DNA from: Bacteroidaceae bacterium
GTDB lineage: Bacteria; Bacteroidota; Bacteroidia; Bacteroidales; Bacteroidaceae
Assembly (NCBI GenBank): GCA_017507385.1
Contig: JAFWAX010000059.1
Coordinates: 1 to 64,000, forward strand
Length of the DNA stretch: 64,000 nt
Reading direction: 5' to 3'
Position 1 is the stretch's first letter. Each line of letters starts with the position of its first letter. The position numbers were made by a program, and so were the translations under genes. Below, in pieces: positions 8,662 through 54,188 of this stretch. Below the pieces are notes generated by a model that was not told the origin of the DNA, ran no database searches, and saw nothing but the letters and a program-made list of their open reading frames with translations.

Positions 8662-8911
8662 CTACTCCATCAGCAACTGCTCATATGGCACCACCAATGC
8701 CTCGATGTCGAAGTCCCATCCTCTTGCCTCGCCTTTTTGTTTGTACTCAGCAAGGAGTTGAGGATTATCAAGCAGTTTCTTGATGCCGCAGTAAAGGGCG
8801 TCCTCGGTATTAGCCGTGATGAGAGCCGAATCGCCATTCCTCAGCAGTTCGGTGAGTTCTGGTGTTTCTGTAGCAACAACAGGGAGACCAAGGATGTGGC
8901 TTTATCTCTGT
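8662..8911 (-). pseudogene. Truncated duplicate of the 3' end of the GT4 gene at 10599
   Basis: This stretch aligns to 10600-10848 with about 22 differences in roughly 234 bases (hand count), then loses frame by a 2-base gap near 8897. On the minus strand it encodes the last ~80 residues, ending GWDFDIEALVVPYEQLLME with its own stop TAG. Most differences are synonymous or conservative, so it descends from a functional allele, not from decay of the neighbouring copy. The N-terminal ~290 codons are absent. Together with the intact copy it flanks the acetyltransferase-methyltransferase gene. Confidence 0.9.
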
Positions 8912-9012: not shown

Positions 9013-10545
9013 TTAGTCAATCTTTTCTGCGACCAATAAGATTTCTTTTGCCCTTCGGTCTGTGGCTGTAGCTAAAGGCTTATCCCATTTCCCTGACTGG
9101 ACATAATTTGCAGAAAGAACCTTAAAGTTCCTTTGTTCAAACGCATCTATCAACTCTTGCCTGATGAAACGATAATCGGCAATCACATATTCTGAAGACA
9201 AATAATTGTCATGATGGAACTGTTCCTTCCGATACACAAGATGAGCCACTTTGTCCAACAAAAAATAATCGGGATTGAAAATGTCACCTGTACTCCGCAT
9301 AATTTCTGATGCGGGCAAGGAGACCAGCTCATCTGTATGCTTCTGTACATTGTTGCAAGTACGAGTAGCGACATGTTCCGTCAATTCCATATTCATCACA
9401 GAGACAACGCAGCGTCCATGTTTTTTCAGCTTCTTATAAATCGAGTCGATGATACTCACGTTCTGTTCCAATGTTCGGAAAGAACCTATTACATCGTACA
9501 AACACATGATAACATCATAACTTCCTTCTATAGATAGATTTCTCGCATCACGCTTCAAGAAAGTAACCGCATGGTCTTTTGCATTTCGCCTTGCTACATT
9601 CAATAAACGCTCGGAAAAATCCACGCCATACACTTCGTATATTCCACGTTTCGCCAATGCTATAGAATGTCGTCCCTGACCACATCCAAGATCCAGCACT
9701 TTCTGCCCTCGCCCCAATTTCGTATGTTCAATGACATAATCTATTTCATGTTCCGTGTATTTTGTCCAAGGCTGATTCTGCATATCCATCCGAGAATAGG
9801 CATCCTCCAACTGCTCAGCAGAAAAGTCAAGCATTTCATTCCACTGGTCTTCATTGAATACTTTTTCTTGTTCTTGAAAAGTAAATGCCAACCATTCATG
9901 CCCATCTTCAATTGCTCCTAATCTGCCTACATATAGTTCGTCTAAGCCACGCTGATGATTCAACTTCTGGAAATTAGGATAAAAGTTTGTATAAATCTGA
10001 GATTTCTCTTTATCTATAATGATTCTTTCTTTGTCTGCAAATTCCACATCATCACATAAAGAACGAATCTCACCGATATGCTCACCTATCACAGAAGGAA
10101 CCACCTTTCTCCATGTCACCGATTCCAACGTTTTGATGGTCACAGCATTAGTAGTGGCCAATCCCCATGCAAAATAATCTGACATTCCCCATGCCGAACG
10201 TAACAGTTTTTTTGCGATACCTCGATTACGGTAGAAACTCCGAACAACCAATTGCGTCACCCAAATACATTTCTTACCATCTTCCAATACTTTATTCAAG
10301 AAAAAAGCATGTCCTATTAATTTCTCGCCATCGTAACATAAAGACACATACATGTCTCTTTGATTCCGCAACGACAAGTATTTTTCTGGACTCAACCTTA
10401 TTCGTTTCCCTTTTCGTTCAGGATTATCAACACCGCTCCACGTTCCATAATCTGACGAGTAAAGTTCCGAACAATCAGACGCTTGCTTTTCAGACAGAGA
10501 AGAACAACCTATCGTATAATATTGGGGACTAAAACTCTTTTCCAT
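9013..10545 (-). CDS. Fused GNAT acetyltransferase and SAM-dependent methyltransferase
   Basis: A 510-residue two-domain protein. Residues ~1-170 look like a GNAT fold: KKCIWVTQLVVRSFYRNRGI is the beta4-alpha3 acetyl-CoA pyrophosphate loop (R/Q-x-x-G-x-A variant). Residues ~255-510 are a class I methyltransferase with motif I VLDLGCGQGRHSIALAKRG near residue 283, an acidic YGVDFSE after beta2 and a DVIMCLYDVIGSF motif IV region. A linker of about 80 residues joins them. Its place inside the polysaccharide operon suggests sugar O/N-acetylation and methylation, but no substrate is visible. It is bracketed by the intact and truncated GT4 3' ends and looks like inserted cargo. Confidence 0.8.
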   Translation of the reverse strand: MEKSFSPQYYTIGCSSLSEKQASDCSELYSSDYGTWSGVDNPERKGKRIRLSPEKYLSLRNQRDMYVSLCYDGEKLIGHAFFLNKVLEDGKKCIWVTQLVVRSFYRNRGIAKKLLRSAWGMSDYFAWGLATTNAVTIKTLESVTWRKVVPSVIGEHIGEIRSLCDDVEFADKERIIIDKEKSQIYTNFYPNFQKLNHQRGLDELYVGRLGAIEDGHEWLAFTFQEQEKVFNEDQWNEMLDFSAEQLEDAYSRMDMQNQPWTKYTEHEIDYVIEHTKLGRGQKVLDLGCGQGRHSIALAKRGIYEVYGVDFSERLLNVARRNAKDHAVTFLKRDARNLSIEGSYDVIMCLYDVIGSFRTLEQNVSIIDSIYKKLKKHGRCVVSVMNMELTEHVATRTCNNVQKHTDELVSLPASEIMRSTGDIFNPDYFLLDKVAHLVYRKEQFHHDNYLSSEYVIADYRFIRQELIDAFEQRNFKVLSANYVQSGKWDKPLATATDRRAKEILLVAEKID

Positions 10546-10598: not shown

Positions 10599-11717
10599 TT
10601 ACTCCATCAGCAACTGCTCGTATGGCACCATCAATGCCTCGATGTCGAAATCCCAGCCTCGCGCCTCGCCTTTTTGCTTGTATTCGGCAAGGAGTTTGGG
10701 GTCGTCAAGCAGTTTCTTGATGCCTGCATAAAGGGCTTCCTCTGTATTGGCCGTGATGAGAGCTGAATCGCCATTCCTCAGCAGTTCGGTGAGTTCTGGT
10801 GTTTCTGTAGCAACAACAGGGAGACCAAGGATGAGGGCCTTTATCACTGCTGAACTATAAGAAGAGCAGACAAAGAGGTTGCCCTGCACCAAATAGCGGT
10901 AAGGATTAGGATGAGGACCGAAAAGTTTGACTTTGTCCTGCAAAGCGTTTTCCTTGACATAATGGTCGAGGATTCCTCGCTGTGAACCGTCACCAAAAAT
11001 CCACAATCCCATATCATATCCTTCCTTGACGAAACGATTGACGATTCTCAGCAAACGTGCATATTCGTTATGCGCCTCCAGACGACCATGTGCAACTAAG
11101 CGCACCTTTACTCCATTTTCATCTTCATTGCTGGCATTCAACGATTTGAGGCGAACAGACAACGAATCGATAGGAGCATAAATCTTTTCTACAGGCTTGG
11201 TGACATCAAGAAACTCTTTTCTGAAAGCATCACAGACAAGACCTGCGATACCGATGATTTTATCATACTGATTGTACGCCTTCGTTTCGTCCTTGATATT
11301 TGAAAAGACTTCTTGAGTCCAATGATTGCTGTGAAGGTCGGAATGCACCCACGCATATTTCTTTGCCTTTGTATTGGAAGAACAACTTAGCAGCTTGGTG
11401 GCAAAGCCTTCTGTGTAAGCAATCTCAATATCATTGCCTTGTGGAACAAACATCTTGTAAACCATAGACATGGGAAGTCGCTTGTACACAAGACTGTATT
11501 TTGTTCCTCTCATGCCATCTTTGAGAATCACTTTATAATTGACATTTTCGCTGATGGTAGATTCATATTTACCTCCACCATTGATGGCACATACCGTTAC
11601 ATCAAACTTGGTCTTATCAATATATTGTACTAATGTAGCAAGTGCCTTTGCAGCCTTGCCGCCATGGAGAGACTCTATCAGGAAAAGAACCTTACGTTTA
11701 GAATCACACTTGTTCAT
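10599..11717 (-). CDS. GT4 family glycosyltransferase
   Basis: A 372-residue GT-B enzyme. The start MNKCDSKRKVLFLIESLHGG gives the glycine-rich acceptor loop (HGGKAAKAL). The donor domain has VRLVAHGRLEAHNEYARLL near residue 205 and GNLFVCSSYSSAVIKALILG near residue 285; the usual E of the ExxxxxE motif is replaced here (SSYSSAVIKA), which is unusual. First glycosyltransferase after the export genes and closest in composition to them, so likely the native neighbour of wzc. A ~250-bp copy of its 3' end persists at 8662-8911. Function: sugar transfer in exopolysaccharide assembly, substrate unknown. Confidence 0.86.
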   Translation of the reverse strand: MNKCDSKRKVLFLIESLHGGKAAKALATLVQYIDKTKFDVTVCAINGGGKYESTISENVNYKVILKDGMRGTKYSLVYKRLPMSMVYKMFVPQGNDIEIAYTEGFATKLLSCSSNTKAKKYAWVHSDLHSNHWTQEVFSNIKDETKAYNQYDKIIGIAGLVCDAFRKEFLDVTKPVEKIYAPIDSLSVRLKSLNASNEDENGVKVRLVAHGRLEAHNEYARLLRIVNRFVKEGYDMGLWIFGDGSQRGILDHYVKENALQDKVKLFGPHPNPYRYLVQGNLFVCSSYSSAVIKALILGLPVVATETPELTELLRNGDSALITANTEEALYAGIKKLLDDPKLLAEYKQKGEARGWDFDIEALMVPYEQLLME

Positions 11718-15610: not shown

Positions 15611-15684
15611 ACCGCCTGCATAATATTCAAAAAACCGTTCACGAAATATTTCAAAGGCGGTGTTTTAAATATTATGCAGGCGGT
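15611..15684. repeat. Inverted-repeat element, copy 1
   Basis: Outer arms of 17 bp are perfectly complementary (15611-15627 and 15668-15684, ACCGCCTGCATAATATT). The inner part is imperfect around a core CACGAAATATTTC. The same core and inner arms occur in the longer element at 39832-39921. Here it lies just past the stop of the acetylesterase gene and upstream of the exopolysaccharide promoter, so it could terminate transcription, but its dispersed nature suggests a REP/MITE-like repeat. Confidence 0.85.
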
Positions 15685-39831: not shown

Positions 39832-39921
39832 ACGCATTCGCCGTGCGCATAATATTTAAAACACCGTGCACGAAATATTTCGCAGGCGGTGTTTTAAATA
39901 TTATGCGCACGGCGAATGCGT
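39832..39921. repeat. Inverted-repeat element, copy 2: perfect 35-bp arms
   Basis: Arms 39832-39866 and 39887-39921 are fully complementary. The 20-nt centre holds the palindrome CGAAATATTTCG. The inner arm sequence GCATAATATTTAAAACACCG and the centre match copy 1 at 15611, while the outer arms differ between copies. It lies between the convergent GH98 and pdxT genes and could work as a two-way terminator, but looks like a mobile repeat. Confidence 0.92.
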
Positions 39922-42873: not shown

Positions 42874-43737
42874 ATGGCTTACAATTTGCTTAAAGGTAAA
42901 AGAGGTATCATTTTTGGTGCACTGAACGATCAGTCTATCGCTTGGAAGGTGGCAGAACGTGCCGTGGAGGAAGGTGCACAGATTGTACTCACAAACACAG
43001 CTGTTGCTTGTCGCATGGGCACGATTGCTGAACTTGCTGAAAAGACTAACGCTACAGTGATTGCTGCCGACGCTACCAGCGTGGAAGACCTTGAGATGCT
43101 CTTTGCTGAATCACAGAAGGCACTGGGCGGAAAGATTGACTTTGTGCTGCATTCTTGTGCCATGAGCGCAAACATGAGAAAGAAGCGTACATATGACGAC
43201 CTCGACTATAGCCTTCTGGACAAGACGCTTGACATTTCGGCTATCTCGTTCCACAAGATGCTGCAGGTGGCAAAGAAGCAAGATGCGTTGAACGAGAACG
43301 CAAGCGTGCTGGCTCTCACTTATGTGGCTAGCCACCGCACATTCTTTGGCTACAACGATATGGCTGACGCTAAGTCGCTGCTGGAGTCTATTGCACGTTC
43401 ATTTGGCTATATCTACGGACGCGAGAAGGGCGTGCGTGTGAACACTATCAGCCAGTCGCCTACATACACAACTGCTGGAGGCGGCATCAAGGGTTTTGAC
43501 GGACTCTTCGACTTCTCCGACCGCATGTCACCACTCGGAAACGCAACCGCCGACGAGTGTGCCGACTACTGCATCGTCATGTTCTCCGACCTCACCAAGA
43601 AAGTCACCATGCAGACCCTTTTCCACGATGGTGGCTTCTCCAACATGGGCATGTCTCTGCGCGGTATGACGCAGTACAACAAGTCCTTCATCGAGGAGAA
43701 CACCGATAAGGAAACAGGTAAGATCATCTACGGATAA
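42874..43737 (+). CDS. fabI: Enoyl-[acyl-carrier-protein] reductase (NADH)
   Basis: Start set at MAYNLLKGKRGIIFGALNDQ (ATG at 42874); the frame is open 27 codons upstream, but that part reads through leader DNA. 287 residues. A Rossmann-fold reductase completing each fatty-acid elongation cycle; target of triclosan-type inhibitors. It has the FabI nucleotide loop (GALNDQSIAWKVA), LHSCAMSANM, and the catalytic Tyr-x6-Lys FGYNDMADAKSLLESIA. C-terminal residues from about 255 on are encoded a second time at 44785. A terminator-like hairpin lies 25 bp beyond the stop. Confidence 0.96.
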   Translation: MAYNLLKGKRGIIFGALNDQSIAWKVAERAVEEGAQIVLTNTAVACRMGTIAELAEKTNATVIAADATSVEDLEMLFAESQKALGGKIDFVLHSCAMSANMRKKRTYDDLDYSLLDKTLDISAISFHKMLQVAKKQDALNENASVLALTYVASHRTFFGYNDMADAKSLLESIARSFGYIYGREKGVRVNTISQSPTYTTAGGGIKGFDGLFDFSDRMSPLGNATADECADYCIVMFSDLTKKVTMQTLFHDGGFSNMGMSLRGMTQYNKSFIEENTDKETGKIIYG

Positions 43738-43762
43738 TTCCCTCCGCTACGTACTTACGAAT

Positions 43763-43808
43763 AAAAATGTTCACCAAGTGGTGTTACACCACTAGGTGAA
43801 CATTTTTT
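43763..43808 (+). terminator. Hairpin with T-run just after fabI
   Basis: AATGTTCACC pairs with GGTGAACATT and is followed by TTTTTT; a second inner stem GTGGTG/CACCAC sits in the loop. It probably ends fabI transcription now that its presumed original terminator is 1.1 kb away. Confidence 0.85.
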
Positions 43809-43810
43809 TA

Positions 43811-43933
43811 TGCTCCAACCTTCCCAAGCTGCGGCAGGCACTCATCGACCGCGAACTAATCGAGCAGACAGAGAAAGGACTCTACATTGCTGACCCGCTC
43901 TTCAAACTCTGGTTCACTTGCGAGATGATGTGA
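43811..43933 (+). pseudogene. C-terminal remnant of an AAA ATPase-like gene
   Basis: About 40 codons with no start read NLPKLRQALIDRELIEQTEK then GLYIADPLFKLWFTCEMM and a stop. This matches the winged-helix end of Bacteroidota ATP-binding proteins of the AAA/DUF234 type. It directly follows the fabI hairpin and lies in the segment bracketed by the fabI 3'-end repeats. Confidence 0.7.
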
Positions 43934-43959
43934 GGAAGAATGTCAGAATAGTGTCCTTA

Positions 43960-44382
43960 TTAAAAGGAGATAGATAGCTTCTCGAAGAGTTCTTGCGGTG
44001 TGATGACGGGTATAATACTGTCCTTGAAGTCTTTCTTGTTTCGGGTCACGATCACATCAGCATCCGATTCCAAAGCACACCTGTGTTGCGTGGCATCTTC
44101 AAGGTCCTTCCACTCGCTCTTGAGCATGTCTTTTATATTTGCCCCTCTCAAATCGGCGATTTCTGTAAATTCGGTAATTTGAATCAGTTTGTCAATCACT
44201 TCATCCTTGGGAAACTTGTATTTGTTGGCGAGATAGACGGTGTTAACAAACGACAATGCCGACACTACCAGCGTAATGTCGCCTGTATATCCAAGTGCGA
44301 AGACACGTTGGGCATTCTCTAAAAACTGCTTGCGCGAGAGAATGAGGTCAACCAGGATATTCGTGTCAACGTAGGCTTTCAT
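43960..44382 (-). CDS. PIN domain protein, probable VapC-type toxin
   Basis: A 140-residue PIN-fold ribonuclease candidate. The first acidic residue is in MKAYVDTNILVDLILSRKQF, and later ones include the central E/D residues (EFTEIADLRGANIKDML) and DADVIVTRNKKDFKDS with the fourth acidic position. Its ATG overlaps the stop of the upstream small gene (ATGA), the usual antitoxin-toxin order. RNA target unknown. Lies inside the segment flanked by the fabI 3'-end repeats. Confidence 0.85.
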   Translation of the reverse strand: MKAYVDTNILVDLILSRKQFLENAQRVFALGYTGDITLVVSALSFVNTVYLANKYKFPKDEVIDKLIQITEFTEIADLRGANIKDMLKSEWKDLEDATQHRCALESDADVIVTRNKKDFKDSIIPVITPQELFEKLSISF

Positions 44383-44654
44383 GCGTCAGTGTATTTCTCT
44401 TCAATCAAAGCATCAATGCCTTTCGTGTTAGCAGGAACCTTTCGGCCTCCTTGCACGGAAAGGGTTTTTACGAAACGAAGGGCATCGTCAAGGCGCGGCT
44501 TGTGTGGCTCATCTGGGGTAATGGGCATCGTGAGAGAGTTTCCTAATCTGACGGCCAATTCATGCCTTACACTCCGGCTCAAGGGGCGCAACAAAGTCCA
44601 ATATGCCTCAAGAGCCATAGCGTCAGTGCGGCTGAATGTTTCAGTTGTTCCCAT
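44379..44654 (-). CDS. Probable antitoxin of the PIN toxin
   Basis: Start set at MGTTETFSRTDAMALEAYWT (ATG at 44654), 29 bp after a good TATCTTTG box; the frame extends to 44735 but would precede the promoter. 91 residues, mixed charge, with a helical centre (LLRPLSRSVRHELAVRL) and a C-terminal KGIDALIEEKYTDA. No known DNA-binding fold recognised. Position and coupling with the PIN gene are the basis of the call. Confidence 0.7.
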   Translation of the reverse strand: MGTTETFSRTDAMALEAYWTLLRPLSRSVRHELAVRLGNSLTMPITPDEPHKPRLDDALRFVKTLSVQGGRKVPANTKGIDALIEEKYTDA

Positions 44655-44682
44655 AATGAAGTTATTTTTGAGTTTCTGGGTA

Positions 44683-44690
44683 CAAAGATA
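44683..44690 (-). promoter_or_regulatory. Predicted -7 box for the toxin-antitoxin pair
   Basis: The minus strand reads TATCTTTG, 28 bp before the antitoxin start codon. Confidence 0.65.
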
Positions 44691-44784
44691 GATGATTTTC
44701 CTGAAACTAGATTCGTTCTTCTGCAAAAATTTCATTTCATGGTCTTAAAAAGATGTGGAAGCTTGATTGAAGTGTACCTTTTCC

Positions 44785-44886
44785 CTCCAACATGGGCATG
44801 TCCCTGCGCGGCATGACGCAGTACAACAAGTCCTTCATCGAGGAGAACACCGATAAGGAAACAGGTAAGATTATCTACGGATAATT
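44785..44886 (+). pseudogene. Second copy of the last 102 bp of fabI
   Basis: Aligns without gaps to 43638-43739 with three differences, all synonymous third-position changes (TCT/TCC, GGT/GGC, ATC/ATT). It encodes the C-terminal ~33 residues plus stop and has no start. It is followed at once by a strong terminator, as a genuine fabI 3' end would be. Confidence 0.95.
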
Positions 44887-44904
44887 ACAATCAGGATGGA
44901 AAAG

Positions 44905-44969
44905 AAGGGAAAGATGGCCATGCGGCTTGTGTCACACACCGCATGGTCATCTTTCCCTTTTTTTTGTTG
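44905..44969 (+). terminator. Strong terminator, probably the ancestral fabI terminator
   Basis: A 21-bp stem (44905-44925 with 44939-44959, one G-U position) is followed by a run of eight or more T. It lies 19 bp after the duplicated fabI stop. It may also end the minus-strand operon that finishes at 44971. Confidence 0.93.
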
Positions 44970-44970
44970 T

Positions 44971-45150
44971 TTACCACAGGCTTCTGTTCGTTCCGTTGTC
45001 ATCCCATATGCTGCGGTCTTTGCTCAGGGCAGTGCCCTCCGTGTCCACCTTCTGGGAGCTGTATCTCACCCCAGGTGTGCTGGCGGCAACCATTTCCTCG
45101 GTTGCGATGTGCACCACCGCCATTGTTGGTCTTTGATAGGTTTTTTTCAT
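44971..45150 (-). CDS. Small 59-residue protein, unannotated type
   Basis: Too short for usual cut-offs. It runs from the ATG at 45150 to the TAA at 44971, 7 bp after the stop of the dockerin-like gene and just before the terminator. It begins MKKTYQRPTMAVVHIATEEM followed by VAASTP and ends in a polar, Trp-containing tail (DDNGTNRSLW). From memory, many Bacteroidales genomes carry 50-80-residue proteins with this layout: MKK-x-Y-x-x-P, a VV-containing strand, a small-residue LLA(A/G)S-like turn and a variable tail. No function is known to me. It is the last gene of the four-gene surface-protein operon. Confidence 0.7.
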   Translation of the reverse strand: MKKTYQRPTMAVVHIATEEMVAASTPGVRYSSQKVDTEGTALSKDRSIWDDNGTNRSLW

Positions 45151-45157
45151 TGTTCCT

Positions 45158-46009
45158 TTATTGATTGGTTAGATATACATTGATGATAAAAACGACATCG
45201 GCCATGTCGATGACACCGTCGCCATTGGCATCTGCCAGTCCTGTATTCATGCCGTCGCTGTTGCCCGTCAGATAGAGGTTGATAACAGCCACGGCATCAG
45301 CTGTATCGACTGTGCCGTCCTCATTGACATCACCCTTTGCATGGGTCTGCACGTCCGTCTGCCCTTCGGCCATTGAGGGGTCAGCAGGGCTGCTGGGGTT
45401 GAAGGGTAACTCTTGGAAGTGCGCCACCAAGGTCTCGTCATGGAAGCCCATCAGATGGTTGAATGCCTGCACGTTCGTCAGTTTCGTGTTGTTCAGATAC
45501 CAGCCTGTAAACTCGTAAAGCTGATCCACTCCTGTGATGTCCACGCTCACATATTGGTCGGCCTCCACCCATGCACCGCTGGTGCGATTGAAAGTGCACA
45601 CACCTGCTGGTTCAGACGTCAGATAGAGGCGGCTCTTCACGTCCATGGTCGGCTCGCTGGGGTCGTTGGGCTGAAAGTCATACACCGCCACAAAGTCCAT
45701 CTGTCCAGCCACGGTGGTGTAGCTGAAACTGGTGGTGGTCGCTTCATAGGTCACCCCGTTCAGTTTCCAGTGGTTGAAAATATAGCCAGCTATAGGCGAG
45801 GTCGAGACCGTCACCACGGTGCCAGGTGCGTAGTTCCCTTTTCCGCTCACATTGGCTCCCCCCGTCGGGTTGCAGGCCACCGTCAGCGGATAGTAGAACA
45901 CCGGCACCTGCGGATCGGCTGGCGGGTCTGGGTCGAAGTCACCCTGCGCCTGCATGCTGTCCACACAGAGCAGCAGCAAGCAGCAGAGGATGAATGATAG
46001 TCGTTTCAT
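45158..46009 (-). CDS. Secreted InlB-repeat and dockerin-like protein
   Basis: Start set at MKRLSFILCCLLLLCVDSMQ (ATG at 46009), a signal peptide; 283 residues. Two divergent InlB B-type repeats follow (GTVVTVSTSPIAGYIFNHWK, ~65; YVSVDITGVDQLYEFTGWYL, ~155). The last ~60 residues are a dockerin-like pair of calcium loops (GDVNEDGTVDTADAVAVINL and LADANGDGVIDMADVVFIIN). Unlike its operon partners it lacks a type IX-like tail. The dockerin module could bind a cohesin-like partner; the first gene of the operon has a possible one. Function unknown. Confidence 0.78.
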   Translation of the reverse strand: MKRLSFILCCLLLLCVDSMQAQGDFDPDPPADPQVPVFYYPLTVACNPTGGANVSGKGNYAPGTVVTVSTSPIAGYIFNHWKLNGVTYEATTTSFSYTTVAGQMDFVAVYDFQPNDPSEPTMDVKSRLYLTSEPAGVCTFNRTSGAWVEADQYVSVDITGVDQLYEFTGWYLNNTKLTNVQAFNHLMGFHDETLVAHFQELPFNPSSPADPSMAEGQTDVQTHAKGDVNEDGTVDTADAVAVINLYLTGNSDGMNTGLADANGDGVIDMADVVFIINVYLTNQ

Positions 46010-46022
46010 AGGCATGAGGCTT

Positions 46023-48731
46023 TTACTTCACATAAACCTTGGCACTCTTGTTGGCCACCTTCACAATGTACATACCTGAAGGAAGTCCCACGAAGCCGTT
46101 GCCCGATTGCTGAGCCACCTGTGCACCGTTGGTGTTGTAGATGGCAATCTGCTTGCCCTCGGCACCGCCGATGCTCAGACCACCATCCTGCAAGCCGATA
46201 GCCACGCCTGTCTTTGCCGTCAGGTCTTTGATGGCTGTAGCCTCGTTCGATGGGAGGAGCATGAAGCGCGTGTTGTTCGTGCCAGCCTCTGTCTCAAACT
46301 CGTAGGCACCCAGTGAGAGGTCGAAGGTGATGTTCTTCTTGGTGTCCAGCAGCAGCATGGGCAAATCCATGCGTGGAGCTTCGATGCGCAGGGTGCCACG
46401 TTCTTTGGTCATGTAGCCTAGACGGATGTCGCCCGACTCGGGACGTTCGTCGATGGCCATCTGCACTCCATTCTCCACCATGTAGAGCTGTGCCTTGGCA
46501 TCGTTGCTGATGAACTTGGCGGCATCACACTCCAGTTCGTACTGGCGGCTGGCCTTCTCGTTCAGGACCAAGCGGGTGCGGTCAACAGATGCCGTGTCGT
46601 TGTCTGTGATGGTCAGGTTGATGAGCAGACGCTCAGGCGCGATGCCCTTGGCTCTGCGTGTGTTTGCCTGATGTATTTTCTTTTGTTCACTCTGACAATA
46701 GGTCTCACGGCGCTCTTTCTCAAATCCGATTTCATCTGTGCCAGAAGGCTTCTGTACGAAGAAAGCCTCGTAGGGCTGCAGGTGATAGTCGTCATCGCCT
46801 GGACGGTAAGCCTGATAGCTGGTACCGTTCCACACCGTGATAGGTGCATCGAAGTCGTTGTCGTCAAAGTCATAGAAGCAAGAGTAGGGGTTGCCCACAA
46901 AGTTCCAGCTGGCGTTGGCGGCGTTGTCACACAGATATTCCGTGAGTGCCTTGGGACGGTTACCGCCAAAGGTTGGATGGTCGAAGTTCACCACCAGTGT
47001 GCCCGCTGTGGCAGACTGGAAGATGTAGCCCTGACGTGCTGTCAGTGTGGTGCCCTCCACAGGTTTCCATCCGTTGGCACCATTCAATGCGCGAATCAGA
47101 CCGTCATACTCTCTCCATGTGTACTGTCCTGGGTATTCGCAACTGGCGATGGTCACGTCGTAAGGGAAGCAGAAGAAGTACCAGCGGTTCGCTTTCACTT
47201 GAATCTTCACTTTCAGCGTGTTCACGGGCATATTGTTATTGGCGTCACCGTCACCACCATCTGCAATCAGAGAACCGCCTTGGCCTTCACCATCAAGGTT
47301 TTGTTCAATCTCGTCGAATGGTTGAGGCTCATTGCCTTCAACAGTAAACGAACCTGTGGGCTTCAATTCACCATCTACATGTTCGCCCGTACTTGTATCG
47401 GGTACACGTTCATCGTCTTCTTCCCAAACAACATCGCTTCCAGTAGGAATTTTAAGATAGTCGTCGGGTGATAAGTTTATCTTAACAATGTTTGCAAATT
47501 GGCTCCAGTTTGTATCGTAATAATATTTTTTATATAGGAACTCTGGAACATAAAGATTCTGATTTGTATAATCAAATGTGTTGGTGGAAATCTCAATAAC
47601 ATCTGGCATGTATGCATAGATGTCCTTTAAGTCCTCGCAATTCATGAACGCTTGATTGCCAATGTTTTCTATATACGGAGGAAGGCGTAAATCCGTTAAC
47701 CCTTCATTACCCCTAAAGGCAAAATTACCTATGGATTGTAGGTGATAAGGAAGGTGAATTTGGGTTAATAAATTTCTCCTATCACTATTAATATAATTAT
47801 CAAATGCACTGTTTCCTATTGTGACTACACTTTCTGGGATATTCACAGATGACAAACTTGAACAGAAATAAAATGCATAGGCAGGAATATAAGGAATTCC
47901 TTCTGGCAGTGTGACGGTTTTTAGATAATCACACTTATAAAATGCATAAGCTTCCAATGACTGAATATCTGCAGGTAACCTAAAACTTAGCAGGGTTTCT
48001 GGTACAAAATATCCAGTAATTACATTGTCCTTTGAATTGCAATTTTTGTAGTATTTATATGGTGAACTCACGACATGAGCATCCGATAAATCCAAATCAC
48101 GAAGGTTGATCATTTTATTGCGAAAGGCCATAATGTCATAACCATTAAAGGTACCATGTACTTTTAATTTCACCACATCAAATGCATGCTCCTCACCTAT
48201 TGCATCTATGATCGCAGAAGATTCTTCCGTTGCCGTTACTGTCACTTCTCGGACAGACGATGAAGATTCTGGTACGACATATCGGCTCATATTTGTCCAT
48301 GCAGTACGATAGGTCTCTACAGCTTCGTCTGGAACAAAAAATACAATTTTAATAGGTGCAGCATTCCAGTTAGTAATTTCTGCTACAGGGGTAGAAGATT
48401 GAAGATGAACATAATGGAGATTTGAACAATTATAAAAAGGTATGCTTCCAATAAAGGTGACACTTGCAGGTACTGTTACGGAAGAGAATTTTTCCCCAAA
48501 GAATGCTTGTTTAGCAATAGTCGTAACTGTATAAGCCGTTTCACCGATATATACAGTTGAAGGAATCATCAATTCATTAGGAATCGTGCCACTAATTCCT
48601 GTAACTGTGGCATTTTCTCCTGATGTTGAAAAATTCCACGCCGTTCCATTGGCATCCGTCCAACTCTCAGCCGACATGCTGATGCTCACACAGCACATCA
48701 GTAATGTAATAAGAAAATGTTTTGTCTTCAT
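46023..48731 (-). CDS. BspA-like leucine-rich repeat surface protein, large
   Basis: A 902-residue secreted protein with signal peptide (~20 residues, SISMSAES). LRR_5 repeats are scattered over residues ~50-410 (for example ITKQAFFGEKFSSVTVPAS-type strands, CDYLKTVTLPEGIPYIPAYA, NCEDLKDIYAYM). A beta-rich middle (~500-800) and a tail ending SGMYIVKVANKSAKVYVK, typical of type IX-like sorting domains, follow. The first half is AT-rich and the second half GC-rich, which suggests a mosaic gene. It lies 35 bp after the previous gene and 13 bp before the dockerin-like gene. Confidence 0.87.
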   Translation of the reverse strand: MKTKHFLITLLMCCVSISMSAESWTDANGTAWNFSTSGENATVTGISGTIPNELMIPSTVYIGETAYTVTTIAKQAFFGEKFSSVTVPASVTFIGSIPFYNCSNLHYVHLQSSTPVAEITNWNAAPIKIVFFVPDEAVETYRTAWTNMSRYVVPESSSSVREVTVTATEESSAIIDAIGEEHAFDVVKLKVHGTFNGYDIMAFRNKMINLRDLDLSDAHVVSSPYKYYKNCNSKDNVITGYFVPETLLSFRLPADIQSLEAYAFYKCDYLKTVTLPEGIPYIPAYAFYFCSSLSSVNIPESVVTIGNSAFDNYINSDRRNLLTQIHLPYHLQSIGNFAFRGNEGLTDLRLPPYIENIGNQAFMNCEDLKDIYAYMPDVIEISTNTFDYTNQNLYVPEFLYKKYYYDTNWSQFANIVKINLSPDDYLKIPTGSDVVWEEDDERVPDTSTGEHVDGELKPTGSFTVEGNEPQPFDEIEQNLDGEGQGGSLIADGGDGDANNNMPVNTLKVKIQVKANRWYFFCFPYDVTIASCEYPGQYTWREYDGLIRALNGANGWKPVEGTTLTARQGYIFQSATAGTLVVNFDHPTFGGNRPKALTEYLCDNAANASWNFVGNPYSCFYDFDDNDFDAPITVWNGTSYQAYRPGDDDYHLQPYEAFFVQKPSGTDEIGFEKERRETYCQSEQKKIHQANTRRAKGIAPERLLINLTITDNDTASVDRTRLVLNEKASRQYELECDAAKFISNDAKAQLYMVENGVQMAIDERPESGDIRLGYMTKERGTLRIEAPRMDLPMLLLDTKKNITFDLSLGAYEFETEAGTNNTRFMLLPSNEATAIKDLTAKTGVAIGLQDGGLSIGGAEGKQIAIYNTNGAQVAQQSGNGFVGLPSGMYIVKVANKSAKVYVK

Positions 48732-50396: not shown

Positions 50397-53300
50397 TCAC
50401 TTCACCATCCGTTTTTTTCCGGCTACAATATAGATGCCACCACGTTGTAGGTGGGTGGTTGCGATGGGAGTGCCTTGGAGGGTGTAGATGTCTGGTGAAG
50501 TGAGTGTTGAGGAGAGTCGTCCTGTGTGTGGGTGGGAAATGCCGTCGGGGACTTCTTCGGGGATGTAGGTGAGGGTGAAGTTGTCGAAGATGGTCCAGTC
50601 TTGACTGATGAGGGTGGACTTCTTCACGCCGATGCGGAGTTTGCCGTCTTCACCCACGGTGCAGAGAAGGCTGTTGGGGTAGAGGTCGGAACGGAAGTAG
50701 GCGCTGGTCTGCTCCATGGTGTTGGGCACATAGCCGTAGCCTGTGGCCATCACGCCAATGGCGCCTTTCTGGCCAGCCTCTTCGATGATGGATTGGAGGG
50801 GTGTGCTCACCTCTTCAGTGCCTTTGGCATAGAGGACGGCGTTCAGTTTCTCCGTGCCTGCCTTGTGGGTGGAGGCGGCGTTGGCTGTGATGCCTGCACG
50901 ATAGAAGCCTTGGCAGGTGAGGAGGTACTGTCCTTGGGGCAGTCCTTCAATCACTTGATAGACATCGAAGGTGGTGTTGTACTTCTCGGCACAGTTGTAA
51001 TCTACTGTGGGAGAGCCTGACCATCCTGCTTTCGAGTTGCCTTCGAACGACGGGTTGACGATGTAGCCCGTGTAGTCTGTCTTTTCGACTTCGGGAAAGG
51101 AGGACACGCTCTCAGCGCGTACCTCGTTGTTTTCGTCCAGATAGACACGGATGGTTTCACCTTTCTTGATGCTGTAGTCGTTGAGCGCGGCAGTGTTGAT
51201 AGCCACGTTGATGACTCCGTCGGAAGTGGCTGTGATGTAGGCCGAAGTATCATCGATCAGTTGGGCTGTCAAGTTGCTGCCCGACACCATCACGGCGAGA
51301 GGATGTGCCACGGAGTGGTTCTGCTGCACGGTGAAGGTGACGGTCGCCTTGCTGCCGTTGATGGTGGTGGGCTCATAGAAGACGGGTGCCACAGTGCCTT
51401 GCACTTGCAGGTCTTTCAGGGTGGCAGTGTTCTCGCCCTTGAAGTTGCTGGCAATGAAGTAGTAGCGGTCGGCATCGGGGGCGATGACACCGTTCCAGCC
51501 TGCGGGCAGTTTCTCTTTTAGCGACAACAGTAGACTTGCCATCTCTTGTGTCTTTTCAGCGTTGATGTTGCTGTAATAGACAATGTTGCGGACATCCACC
51601 ACATCGCCACTCTTCACGGAACGTGAGGCATTGCTGTACATTGGATAGAGTTTCGAGGTGTAGATGGAGTTGTTGGCTCCACGGTCGCCAAAGGCCATCA
51701 GCCCATGCGCAGGGTGGATGACACCCAGTTCGTTGTCGATGTTCACCCAGTTGCTCTCGAAGGTGGTGAAGGTGCTCCCATCTAACTGCTTGTGGGTCAT
51801 GCCCTCTTCTTTATTATAATATAATGTACGCGTGGTCTTCATCAGCTCGTCGGTGGAGATGGCGAGGAGGCCTCCCTTCTCGGCTGTGATGGTGGCGGCA
51901 GCGTTGGCGGTCACGTAGTCGAGGTAGATGAGGGCGTTCTGTGGGGTGGAGTAGAGGGCGAAACGGTTGTTGAGCGTGTTGTCGTTGGTGTTCAGTTCAC
52001 CGTTCATCACGTAACCATTGCCCTTCAGTTGATAGATGCCGCTCACCACTGGTGTGGCGTTGGTGCCCTTACCGCTCACTTCATACCATCCGAGGAGGTT
52101 GCCCGTGTTGTTGGCACGATAAGGCACCACAATCTTGTTTTTGTCGGGCGAGTTGGCAGCGAAGTAGCCTGTGTAGGACTTCAGACCGTTGCTCCACGAG
52201 AAGCAGGTGAAGCGGTCGTCTGTGGCTGCACGCACAACATTTTGGCAAGGTATCAGTTTCGCCTCCCCGTGTTTTGTATTGAAGGCGTCCCATGATGTGG
52301 GCGTGAGGTCTGCTGTTGAAAGCATTTCGTGCATGAGGTAAGTCATCATGACACGGTGTGCCTCCACTCCCATGCGACGTGCGCCGACATCTGCGCGAAG
52401 TAGCCATGATCCGTCAGCCGTAGTCTTCTGTCTGGCTTTGATATATTTGTAAGCCATGTTCTCCAGCATGAGTGCATTGGGGTCTCTCTGGAAGCAAGCC
52501 TGAGTGGAGTAGCTTGTAATTTGGTCGTAGAGGAAGAGGCTCCAGTCGTTTCCGTTAGGCATAGCCAGTTCTCCGTCAGCCAATGCCAGCCAGTTGAGGA
52601 TGCTGTCTTGTACCTGCTGGTTGTTGTGCATGAGGGCATTTGTCTTCCATGTTTCCTTGCCGTACAGTCCTTGCTGGAACATCTTGAGCGCGAGGGCTGC
52701 CTCTCCGAGTTCTTGCATGACGACATTCTGGTAAGAGGTGTGGAAGAGATTATGATTCTGCAATGAATAGTCATCGTATAGATTCTGTCCCTTGTAGAGG
52801 TCAGCAACCGTCTTGTTGTCGTACCATTCATCAATGACCGTCGTATTATCTGCGTCAGAAGGATGCGAATAGCTGTTGATGGCAAATTCGCGAAGGCGTT
52901 CAAACCAACGAGAAGCCAGAGGATCATCGGGGAACAATCCGAGTGTTGCGGCAAGCACATTGGTCTCCCAGCCATTTTCCTCCGCTTTCGTATCCCCTGC
53001 ATACCCCGTAGGGATACTGCGGTTGAGTTCGTAGTTGCATTCTGCTTTCAGAAGGGAATAGATGTATCCTTTCTGTTTTTCGCTGAGTTTGTCCCATTGG
53101 AAATATGCGGAATAGGCGACGGACATTGCCCAAAGTGATGATTCCCAAACTGCATCGGAGGTGGATGTTGACCCCCAATAATTGTTCCCCTTGCAAACTT
53201 TCAGCTTGTTGGCCTTATGGGTTGAATAGGCAAAAATGAGCGACTTCATTGCCATGTCTTCTATCTTGGCCCATGTCACGCCTGCAGGAAGTGTGACGCC

Positions 53301-54188
53301 TGCAGGCTTCCCGTATTTGACGAGGAAAGCACATACCATGGACAGGTCGGCATTGGGTCGCACGCCTCTCTCGTCGTTTGCCATGGTGTTTTCTCCTTTG
53401 AAACATCCGCATGCCTCGTTGATGGAATTGGGTGCAGTGCATTCTTGGAAATCGTCAACCATGTAGCGAGAGAAATTGGCGAGCATCTGCAACAGGTCTG
53501 CTTTCATGTCTGCCTCGTTAACGAAGTCGGCTGTGATGATGCCTTCTGTGAATGAAGATACAGCTTCTTCTGTCGGGTCTTCTGCCTCCGTGTAGTCATC
53601 AGGCATCTTGTAGAGTCTGAAGTTGTCGATGAGGACTGAGCCTCCAGAGCCGCTTCCGAAGTGAACCCGAAGTCCAATGCTTACTTGTTCTTCTTGAGCC
53701 GTCTCAAACATCAGTTCGCTCTTGGTCCATGTTGCAGGCAGGCTTCCTTGAAATGTCAGGGAGAGGCTTTCTTTGCCTGCGATGAGGCTGGCAGTATGTG
53801 ATGATTGGGTTACGCATTTGTTGTCAAGGACAAGTTTGTACAGTCCTTTAGGCAATGTGATGGCTTGCAGAAGTGTGGCTGTAGAGGCATTCCATGCATT
53901 GCGGATGTAGTACATCTGTTTACCGTCAGAGGGGTGGCCTGGAGCGCCGAAGTTGTTGTCTGTAGCAGTGGCTGCAGCGGTCATGATGTCGCTGACTCCG
54001 TAGCTGCCTTCGAGCGTCCAGCCTTCAACCGTCTTTGCTGTATAGGCGCCTCGGGTATCATCGGCGGGCAGCTTGGAAATGTCATCTTGTTCAAATGATG
54101 GATTCTTGATGTATTGCGAGGTGATGTCTTCTTGGGCTTTGGCTGCTGTTGCCAAGGAGAGAAGAAGGAGCAGAATAGGTTTTTTCAT
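50397..54188 (-). CDS. Large secreted protein, probable unclassified carbohydrate-active enzyme
   Basis: 1263 residues with signal peptide (~18, TAAKAQ). Residues ~22-190 look like a CBM4/9-type jelly roll (YIKNPSFEQDD ... GSVLIDNFRLYKM). Residues ~220-640 are helical with repeated Trp/aromatic motifs (SDAVWESSLWAMSVAYSAYF, NGWETNVLAATLGLFPDD, NHNLFHTSYQNVVMQELGEA), suggesting an alpha/alpha toroid as in polysaccharide lyases or GH families. A long beta-sheet region and a second jelly roll (YIVNPSFEGNSKAGW, ~1050) come next, and a sorting tail ends YIVAGKKRMVK. I recognise no specific family. Single-gene unit with its own terminator. Confidence 0.7.
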   Translation of the reverse strand: MKKPILLLLLSLATAAKAQEDITSQYIKNPSFEQDDISKLPADDTRGAYTAKTVEGWTLEGSYGVSDIMTAAATATDNNFGAPGHPSDGKQMYYIRNAWNASTATLLQAITLPKGLYKLVLDNKCVTQSSHTASLIAGKESLSLTFQGSLPATWTKSELMFETAQEEQVSIGLRVHFGSGSGGSVLIDNFRLYKMPDDYTEAEDPTEEAVSSFTEGIITADFVNEADMKADLLQMLANFSRYMVDDFQECTAPNSINEACGCFKGENTMANDERGVRPNADLSMVCAFLVKYGKPAGVTLPAGVTWAKIEDMAMKSLIFAYSTHKANKLKVCKGNNYWGSTSTSDAVWESSLWAMSVAYSAYFQWDKLSEKQKGYIYSLLKAECNYELNRSIPTGYAGDTKAEENGWETNVLAATLGLFPDDPLASRWFERLREFAINSYSHPSDADNTTVIDEWYDNKTVADLYKGQNLYDDYSLQNHNLFHTSYQNVVMQELGEAALALKMFQQGLYGKETWKTNALMHNNQQVQDSILNWLALADGELAMPNGNDWSLFLYDQITSYSTQACFQRDPNALMLENMAYKYIKARQKTTADGSWLLRADVGARRMGVEAHRVMMTYLMHEMLSTADLTPTSWDAFNTKHGEAKLIPCQNVVRAATDDRFTCFSWSNGLKSYTGYFAANSPDKNKIVVPYRANNTGNLLGWYEVSGKGTNATPVVSGIYQLKGNGYVMNGELNTNDNTLNNRFALYSTPQNALIYLDYVTANAAATITAEKGGLLAISTDELMKTTRTLYYNKEEGMTHKQLDGSTFTTFESNWVNIDNELGVIHPAHGLMAFGDRGANNSIYTSKLYPMYSNASRSVKSGDVVDVRNIVYYSNINAEKTQEMASLLLSLKEKLPAGWNGVIAPDADRYYFIASNFKGENTATLKDLQVQGTVAPVFYEPTTINGSKATVTFTVQQNHSVAHPLAVMVSGSNLTAQLIDDTSAYITATSDGVINVAINTAALNDYSIKKGETIRVYLDENNEVRAESVSSFPEVEKTDYTGYIVNPSFEGNSKAGWSGSPTVDYNCAEKYNTTFDVYQVIEGLPQGQYLLTCQGFYRAGITANAASTHKAGTEKLNAVLYAKGTEEVSTPLQSIIEEAGQKGAIGVMATGYGYVPNTMEQTSAYFRSDLYPNSLLCTVGEDGKLRIGVKKSTLISQDWTIFDNFTLTYIPEEVPDGISHPHTGRLSSTLTSPDIYTLQGTPIATTHLQRGGIYIVAGKKRMVK

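Follow-up and report, generated by a model that had tools for sequence, protein, structure and literature searches.

The 3′ end of fabI, the gene for enoyl-ACP reductase, is present twice in a 64-kb stretch of DNA from a Bacteroidaceae bacterium (assembly GCA_017507385.1, contig JAFWAX010000059.1, positions 1 to 64,000; hereafter the window), once as the end of the intact gene and once as an orphan behind a probable toxin-antitoxin pair. We consider it somewhat probable that foreign DNA was captured here in an additive event, driven by homology and independent of an integrase, of which the locus preserves the scar; most likely the locus is a natural instance of an already familiar type of recombination product and not a new mobile element. 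This interpretation is carried by the single fabI ends of related genomes, the sequence context of the orphan, an independent case at fabI in a second genome of the genus (G013), and a glycosyltransferase gene in the window that has the same layout.

The fabI 3′ end occurs twice

The locus and its right flank comprise the following features:

42874..43737, + strand: intact fabI, enoyl-ACP reductase gene (Pfam adh_short_C2, E 4.1e-55); parsimony makes its 3′ end the acquired copy
43610..43739, + strand: proximal copy of the fabI 3′ end, including the stretch left of the 102-bp limit (repeat search, joint alignment)
43763..43807, + strand: hairpin followed by a T-run directly behind proximal fabI, terminator-like (inverted repeat of 22 nt, 95%)
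43796..43933, + strand: 45-aa open frame (Pfam: nothing at E up to 1)
43960..44382, − strand: PIN-domain protein, probable toxin of a toxin-antitoxin pair (PIN_3, PF13470, E 9.4e-19)
44379..44735, − strand: probable antitoxin, overlapping the toxin start (no family match; C-terminal part similar in three neighbours of PIN relatives)
44777..44886, + strand: distal orphan fabI 3′ end, made up of 8 bp, a 13-bp deletion and 102 bp; its start lies perhaps up to 4 bp earlier
44900..44964, + strand: terminator-like hairpin behind the orphan end (inverted repeat of 32 nt, 88%); by parsimony the native terminator
44971..45150, − strand: 59-aa frame in the right flank
45158..48731, − strand: right flank with a dockerin protein and a BspA-like leucine-rich protein (Pfam), in the same order as behind fabI in the related genome G014

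A repeat search placed the direct repeats at 43638-43739 and 44785-44886 (102 nt, 99/102 bases or 97% equal, spacing 1147 bp), the very coordinates at which an earlier note on this DNA had seen the last 102 bp of fabI twice. The three differences, at 43656, 43665 and 43725, are all T/C changes and synonymous (Ser, Gly, Ile), as that note had also stated. In all, the window has three exact direct repeats of at least 30 nt, this pair included, and a query of 43600-43900 against the assembly of the window's genome (G000, a draft, 78% complete, in 84 contigs) matched solely at the two window copies. The 102 bp are merely the ungapped limit. Since the 8-mer CCTTTTCC at 44777-44784 in the distal copy equals fabI 43617-43624, and the 13 bp that separate it from the repeat in fabI are deleted from the distal copy, homology reaches ∼21 bp further left, to about 43610-43617. 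Such 8-mer agreement is expected by chance at a frequency of 0.06% (0.0006; window 8-mers outside the fabI region compared with a 40-nt fabI stretch).

The two copies agree across the coding sequence, and similarity ends within 2 bp of the stop codon, a pattern expected of two orthologous gene ends. A diversity-generating retroelement would leave differences only at template adenines; the differences here are T/C changes, and no reverse transcriptase was recognised among the cargo frames scanned with Pfam. The FabI protein itself is 90-98% identical to 25 other genus matches listed at E <1e-160.

Empty and occupied fabI loci in related genomes

The region downstream of fabI was mapped in 20 genus relatives. 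In 15 of them, a homologue of the window's 1263-aa protein (50397-54188; no Pfam family found) lies convergent to fabI and within 300 bp behind it. G002 has the aminotransferase gene downstream, G034 has ∼1.2 kb between fabI and the 1263-aa-type gene, G013 and G014 carry inserts, and none of the marker genes sought was present in the 14 kb behind fabI in G023. In G014, a single fabI end is followed by a terminator and then by the dockerin/BspA flank that lies behind the orphan in the window; a dockerin match was found solely in G000 and G014 among the 21 loci mapped.

Orphan fabI ends were sought at the DNA and protein levels in 29 relatives (0.4 to 14.7 kb of downstream DNA per locus). Besides G000, one genome (G013) has such an orphan, and the remaining 28/29 have a single end. 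A 63-aa query from the FabI C-terminus matched 30 of the 45 genus genomes and 192/399 family genomes, with two matches per genome in G000, G013, G185 (frames of 292 and 331 aa) and G033, where the second match is a contig-edge fragment (G033:C83) that we left out of the counts, as it starts 2 bp before the fabI tail in a genome with 8% contamination. In two further genera (fabI matched in 16/18 and 24/139 genomes), no orphan tail was found: G445 has a second, nearly whole fabI copy with a stop codon, and the remaining second or weak matches fall within frames of 250-470 aa.

In the independent case in G013, an intact fabI and a terminator precede a cargo of two frames, which weakly match a secretion-tail domain and an Lcl_C domain; behind these come 113 bp of the fabI 3′ end. 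This orphan lies 1.7 kb downstream, is 87% identical and contains one stop codon. By eye, it joins the GGGCGGATGCA terminator motif at a shared GCAAG; G014 has the same motif behind fabI, as does G068 at a distance larger by ∼55 bp, whereas the intact fabI of G013 is followed by a different terminator. The whole cargos of G000 and G013 are no more alike than shuffled sequences.

By parsimony, the distal copies would be native: with the orphan at the position expected of the native end, the proximal end, its terminator and the cargo appear as the addition. The single end in 28/29 relatives, the G014 context and the G013 layout thus bear out the earlier note's claim that DNA entered at the fabI 3′ end and brought its own replacement end. 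The comparison across relatives that the note proposed returned single-end sites (in G014 with a terminator followed by the dockerin/BspA flank) and a different cargo (in G013), in other genomes of the genus rather than in strains of the same species. A relative in which fabI is followed by this same cargo was not found in the 45 genus genomes, which counts against the capture.

A parallel case at a glycosyltransferase gene

A glycosyltransferase gene elsewhere in the window has its final 250 bp repeated behind an intervening gene:

10599..11717, − strand: intact glycosyltransferase gene (Pfam Glycos_transf_1, E 1.1e-16)
9013..10545, − strand: cargo gene, complete, 510 aa, with acetyltransferase and methyltransferase domains (Pfam)
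8663..8910, − strand: orphan 3′ end of the glycosyltransferase gene (90% identity to 10600-10849)

In G036, the glycosyltransferase gene is directly followed by a homologue of the flippase (Polysacc_synt) that in the window lies beyond the orphan, while in G035 the gene directly behind it is a homologue of the window's cargo gene, 79% identical in DNA. G000 has both, the cargo gene as in G035 and the flippase as in G036, with the orphan end between them. We aligned the intact and orphan gene ends of G000 with those of G035, G064, G013 and G036. The intact and orphan copies are equal over alignment columns 287-355 and differ at 20 positions in columns 356-470, and at 20/20 of these the intact copy equals G035. 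Columns 382-481 of the intact copy are identical to G035 (other 40-column windows, 62-95%), and over the gene end, identity to G035 is 91% for the intact copy and 83% for the orphan. Homologous exchange with a lineage like G035 has therefore taken place within the glycosyltransferase gene.

Frequency of orphan gene ends

A protein-level scan of 1.36 Mb (926 frames of at least 150 aa, the two fabI loci included by design) yielded three unhosted C-terminal copies downstream of their gene, namely those of fabI in G000 and G013 and of the glycosyltransferase gene, and one hosted copy. Unhosted N-terminal copies upstream numbered four (18-37 aa, partly tandem), and internal copies five. A DNA-level scan of gene ends (1.63 Mb, 1107 frames) returned 14 downstream and 10 upstream unhosted C-terminal copies as well as 14 upstream and five downstream unhosted N-terminal copies; the long C-terminal copies beyond the main three were one AT-rich repeat and one that by eye resembles a diversity-generating retroelement. 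On these counts, the duplicated-end layout is rare, and a bias towards 3′ ends is not shown. That our main cases lie at gene 3′ ends may reflect survival, because a donor carrying a true gene end would restore the gene.

The retroelement-like locus (L156 14674-16433, in G013:C11) comprises the 3′ end of a gene and, 270 bp downstream, a copy that differs from it mainly at adenines of the downstream copy. Pfam assigned a family neither to the gene nor to the 514-aa frame that follows it, and gave no support for a reverse transcriptase in that frame.

Homology-driven capture and its alternatives

We infer the donor, the joining step and a role of selection, and by parsimony the direction of the event, as follows. 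A donor fragment would have carried the toxin-antitoxin pair behind the terminal portion of a related fabI and the donor's terminator, and would have recombined with the resident fabI at the common 3′ end. Its other end would have been joined without much homology, ∼120 bp before the resident stop codon, either by end-joining into a circle, which a single crossover then integrated, or through one-sided joining. This would yield a complete fabI with the donor end, then the cargo, and behind it the resident end, displaced together with its terminator, so that the essential gene would stay whole after an insertion at its 3′ end. As expected of additive integration, the cargo is flanked by direct repeats of a gene segment that is single at the empty site. 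For homologous exchange inside the gene, fabI offers too few differences to judge by, and the glycosyltransferase gene has an exchange tract that perhaps stems from a later event.

Products of this kind are known from the laboratory. In Escherichia coli conjugation, 56/60 recombinants gave a PCR product diagnostic of a gene-end duplication, the 14 sequenced ones had duplications of 109-950 bp, and the cause inferred was a single crossover of a circular molecule missing part of the gene end (PMC3240628). The loci described here likewise have foreign DNA at a gene and a partial direct duplication of the gene end (about 110-250 bp), yet with a natural cargo in place of the laboratory plasmid of that account, and as inferred from draft genomes. 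The other 4/60 recombinants were ascribed to homology-facilitated illegitimate recombination with a deletion, a process reported there also for Streptococcus pneumoniae, Acinetobacter baylyi and Pseudomonas stutzeri (PMC3240628). This process shares with our reading of fabI the homology at one incoming end, the illegitimate joining at the other and insertions of ∼1 kb, but as described in that source it generally deletes recipient DNA; at fabI no such deletion was seen at the illegitimate joint, for the gene end is there twice and the flank to the right of the orphan has been retained in the form known from G014. A related process has been proposed for displaced genes in the type VI arrays of Vibrio cholerae (PMC5361080). 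There, as in Rhs loci, a new module with its own end pushes the old 3′ end downstream; in those systems the exchanged end is variable and part of the module, while the end of fabI is conserved and its cargo unrelated to the gene. Among the records listed in our literature search, judged by titles and abstract beginnings, there was nothing on this locus.

Several observations weigh against a capture of this kind. Despite their unrelated cargos, the two fabI orphans have starts that lie no more than ∼7 bp apart (43610-43617), a coincidence that by our estimate would befall ∼2% of pairs under random joining in the 864-bp gene, or 5% if joining were confined to the last 300 bp. To the left of the two joints, nine of 15 bases agree, a level reached by 1.4% of random cargo pairs; some four of these bases may belong to fabI itself, and the coincidence of the starts and the similarity of the joints are therefore not independent. 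The DNA scan lacks an excess of downstream 3′-end over upstream 5′-end copies (14 vs 14 unhosted). At the glycosyltransferase gene, the direction of the original event is left unfixed by the exchange tract, which could be a later conversion, and both the cargo (79%) and the upstream gene (83%) have diverged from G035 to a degree in keeping with old or vertical descent. Besides, G000 is a draft without reads, and the comparison set is without a strain of the same species.

The close starts and the similar joints, seen in two cases, would fit a fixed site. Integrative elements such as e14 and phage 21 insert into icd with a replacement 3′ end that carries synonymous changes and keeps the gene intact. 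The replacement end of fabI, too, differs at synonymous sites only and leaves the gene intact, so that the locus could be the remnant of a site-specific integrative element with a recombinase site ∼120 bp before the fabI stop codon and a recombinase that was lost or acts from another place, an explanation that we regard as possible but unlikely. Orphan ends at 2/30 fabI loci (G000 plus 29 relatives), as opposed to one other clear case in 926 frames, would fit it. Set against this, the cargo is very small and a defined attachment core was not recognised, and a Pfam scan of five cargo frames (three in G000, two in G013) recognised no recombinase, in line with the earlier note's remark that no integrase is present. 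Nor was there a phage-type integrase on the 30 fabI contigs among the matches listed (down to ∼E 1e-14); an integrase beside tRNA-Met in G013, weaker than those listed, sits upstream of fabI. Phage records contained no fabI tail at E 0.01, and the two plasmid-record matches span the whole 42-aa query and do not appear as a separate tail, one lying within a complete fabI-like gene (287-aa match) and the other being annotated as an enoyl-ACP reductase. The dissimilar cargos of G000 and G013, and the equal layout at the unrelated glycosyltransferase gene, also argue against a site particular to fabI. In a variant that we find more doubtful still, the Met-Gln-Thr-Leu-Phe codons in the fabI 3′ end would be a fixed docking site for small recombinase-less cassettes with a replacement end, moved by a recombinase encoded elsewhere; G000 and G013 would then hold two cassettes that share one crossover point and a short sequence beside it. 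With no recombinase recognised, unlike cargos and the layout recurring at an unrelated gene, the earlier note's proposal of a remnant island or a new cassette site has so far not gained support, and what remains of a dedicated site are the hints from the orphan starts and joint bases.

The remaining alternatives appear weaker. The polarity might be reversed, the cargo having been there first and the orphan end having arrived at the front of an incoming block of orphan end, terminator and dockerin/BspA module. The confinement of the dockerin match to G000 and G014 would agree with this, as would the comparison with G014, from which the orphan differs at two and the proximal copy at three of 100 bases. 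The modules of G000 and G014 are, however, only ∼75% identical over 2.2 kb, so that the block is not a recent import from G014, and G013, which is without the module, has its orphan adjoining the terminator motif common to G014 and G068; we therefore hold this order of events to be improbable. A tandem duplication inside the genome, with the cargo inserted later between the two copies, would account for their 97% identity, but hardly for the loss of similarity so close to the stop codon and the two differing terminator hairpins, and it would need two coincident events in two species, which makes it very improbable. Least credible of all is an assembly artefact. A 78%-complete draft in 84 contigs leaves some room for one, although the window is free of any N and the G013 orphan, 13% diverged and with a stop codon, looks as an old, real copy would.

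If fabI was indeed modified by homology-driven capture, orphan gene ends are readable scars left by small foreign segments, here those for a toxin-antitoxin pair, secreted-type proteins and an acetyltransferase/methyltransferase, whose fixation involved no recognisable mobile-element machinery. Such capture would be countable across genomes, because orphan ends show where the insertion took place and often which side is native. Should more fabI orphans share one start, this would point instead to a new cassette site in an essential gene.

Three further signals in fabI were followed and discarded. A hidden conserved element in the 3′ end is not apparent, since fourfold sites diverge by 0.483 over the last 34 codons, against 0.502 in the rest of the gene (23 genomes; 3 of 26 left out for length). 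Identity of the G000 fabI to G014 rises after about base 675 in the manner of a mosaic, but G013 and G036 rise similarly. The longest exact tracts (75 bp shared with G068, 72 bp with G014) are not clearly exceptional, given that a pair at 86% identity reaches 80.

Cargo and flanking sequences

The PIN protein and its small, overlapping upstream partner probably form a PIN-domain toxin-antitoxin pair, to judge from the gene layout. A family search found no family for the partner (44379..44735); in an alignment, its C-terminal part is similar in three genes that adjoin PIN relatives. Together with the PIN_3 match, this upholds the earlier note's description of the pair as cargo, whereas its label of an ATPase remnant for the 45-aa frame went unconfirmed by Pfam. 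PIN relatives with 61-67% identity occur in G034, G008, L115 and L116, all at other loci, and no near copy of the cargo DNA was found in the 45 genus genomes. The PIN search gave 24 matches in plasmid records and one in phage records, every one below 60% identity; viral contigs yielded neither PIN relatives nor the junction sequence. In L115 (4681-6344), the PIN gene is followed by a second small-gene module, with similar repeats of 33-55 bp before each, perhaps a toxin-antitoxin array.

The hairpin at 43763-43807 recurs at 81-88% identity in unrelated places of G002, G003, G013 and G026, in the manner of a terminator-like repeat family. A short frame similar to the 59-aa frame of the right flank seems to be present between fabI and the dockerin gene in G014, as seen by eye, with no search made.

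Further observations at fabI loci and in the window

Between the fabI stop codon and the terminator motif, G068 has ∼55 extra bases with a small hairpin (L165 865-990), perhaps a further small gain at the same place. Upstream of fabI, the integrase gene of G013 mentioned above encodes a tyrosine integrase and lies directly behind the tRNA-Met gene that neighbours fabI there (L034 7604-8982; Phage_integrase, E 9.9e-13); in G033 this tRNA is present as two tandem copies (L037 268-462). A FabI C-terminal match is missing from 15 of the 45 genus genomes (G030, 97% complete; the other 14, 65-89%), which may use another enoyl reductase. Lastly, the window holds two palindromic segments, 15611-15684 and 39832-39921, which lie 24 kb apart and share 60 bp at 92%.

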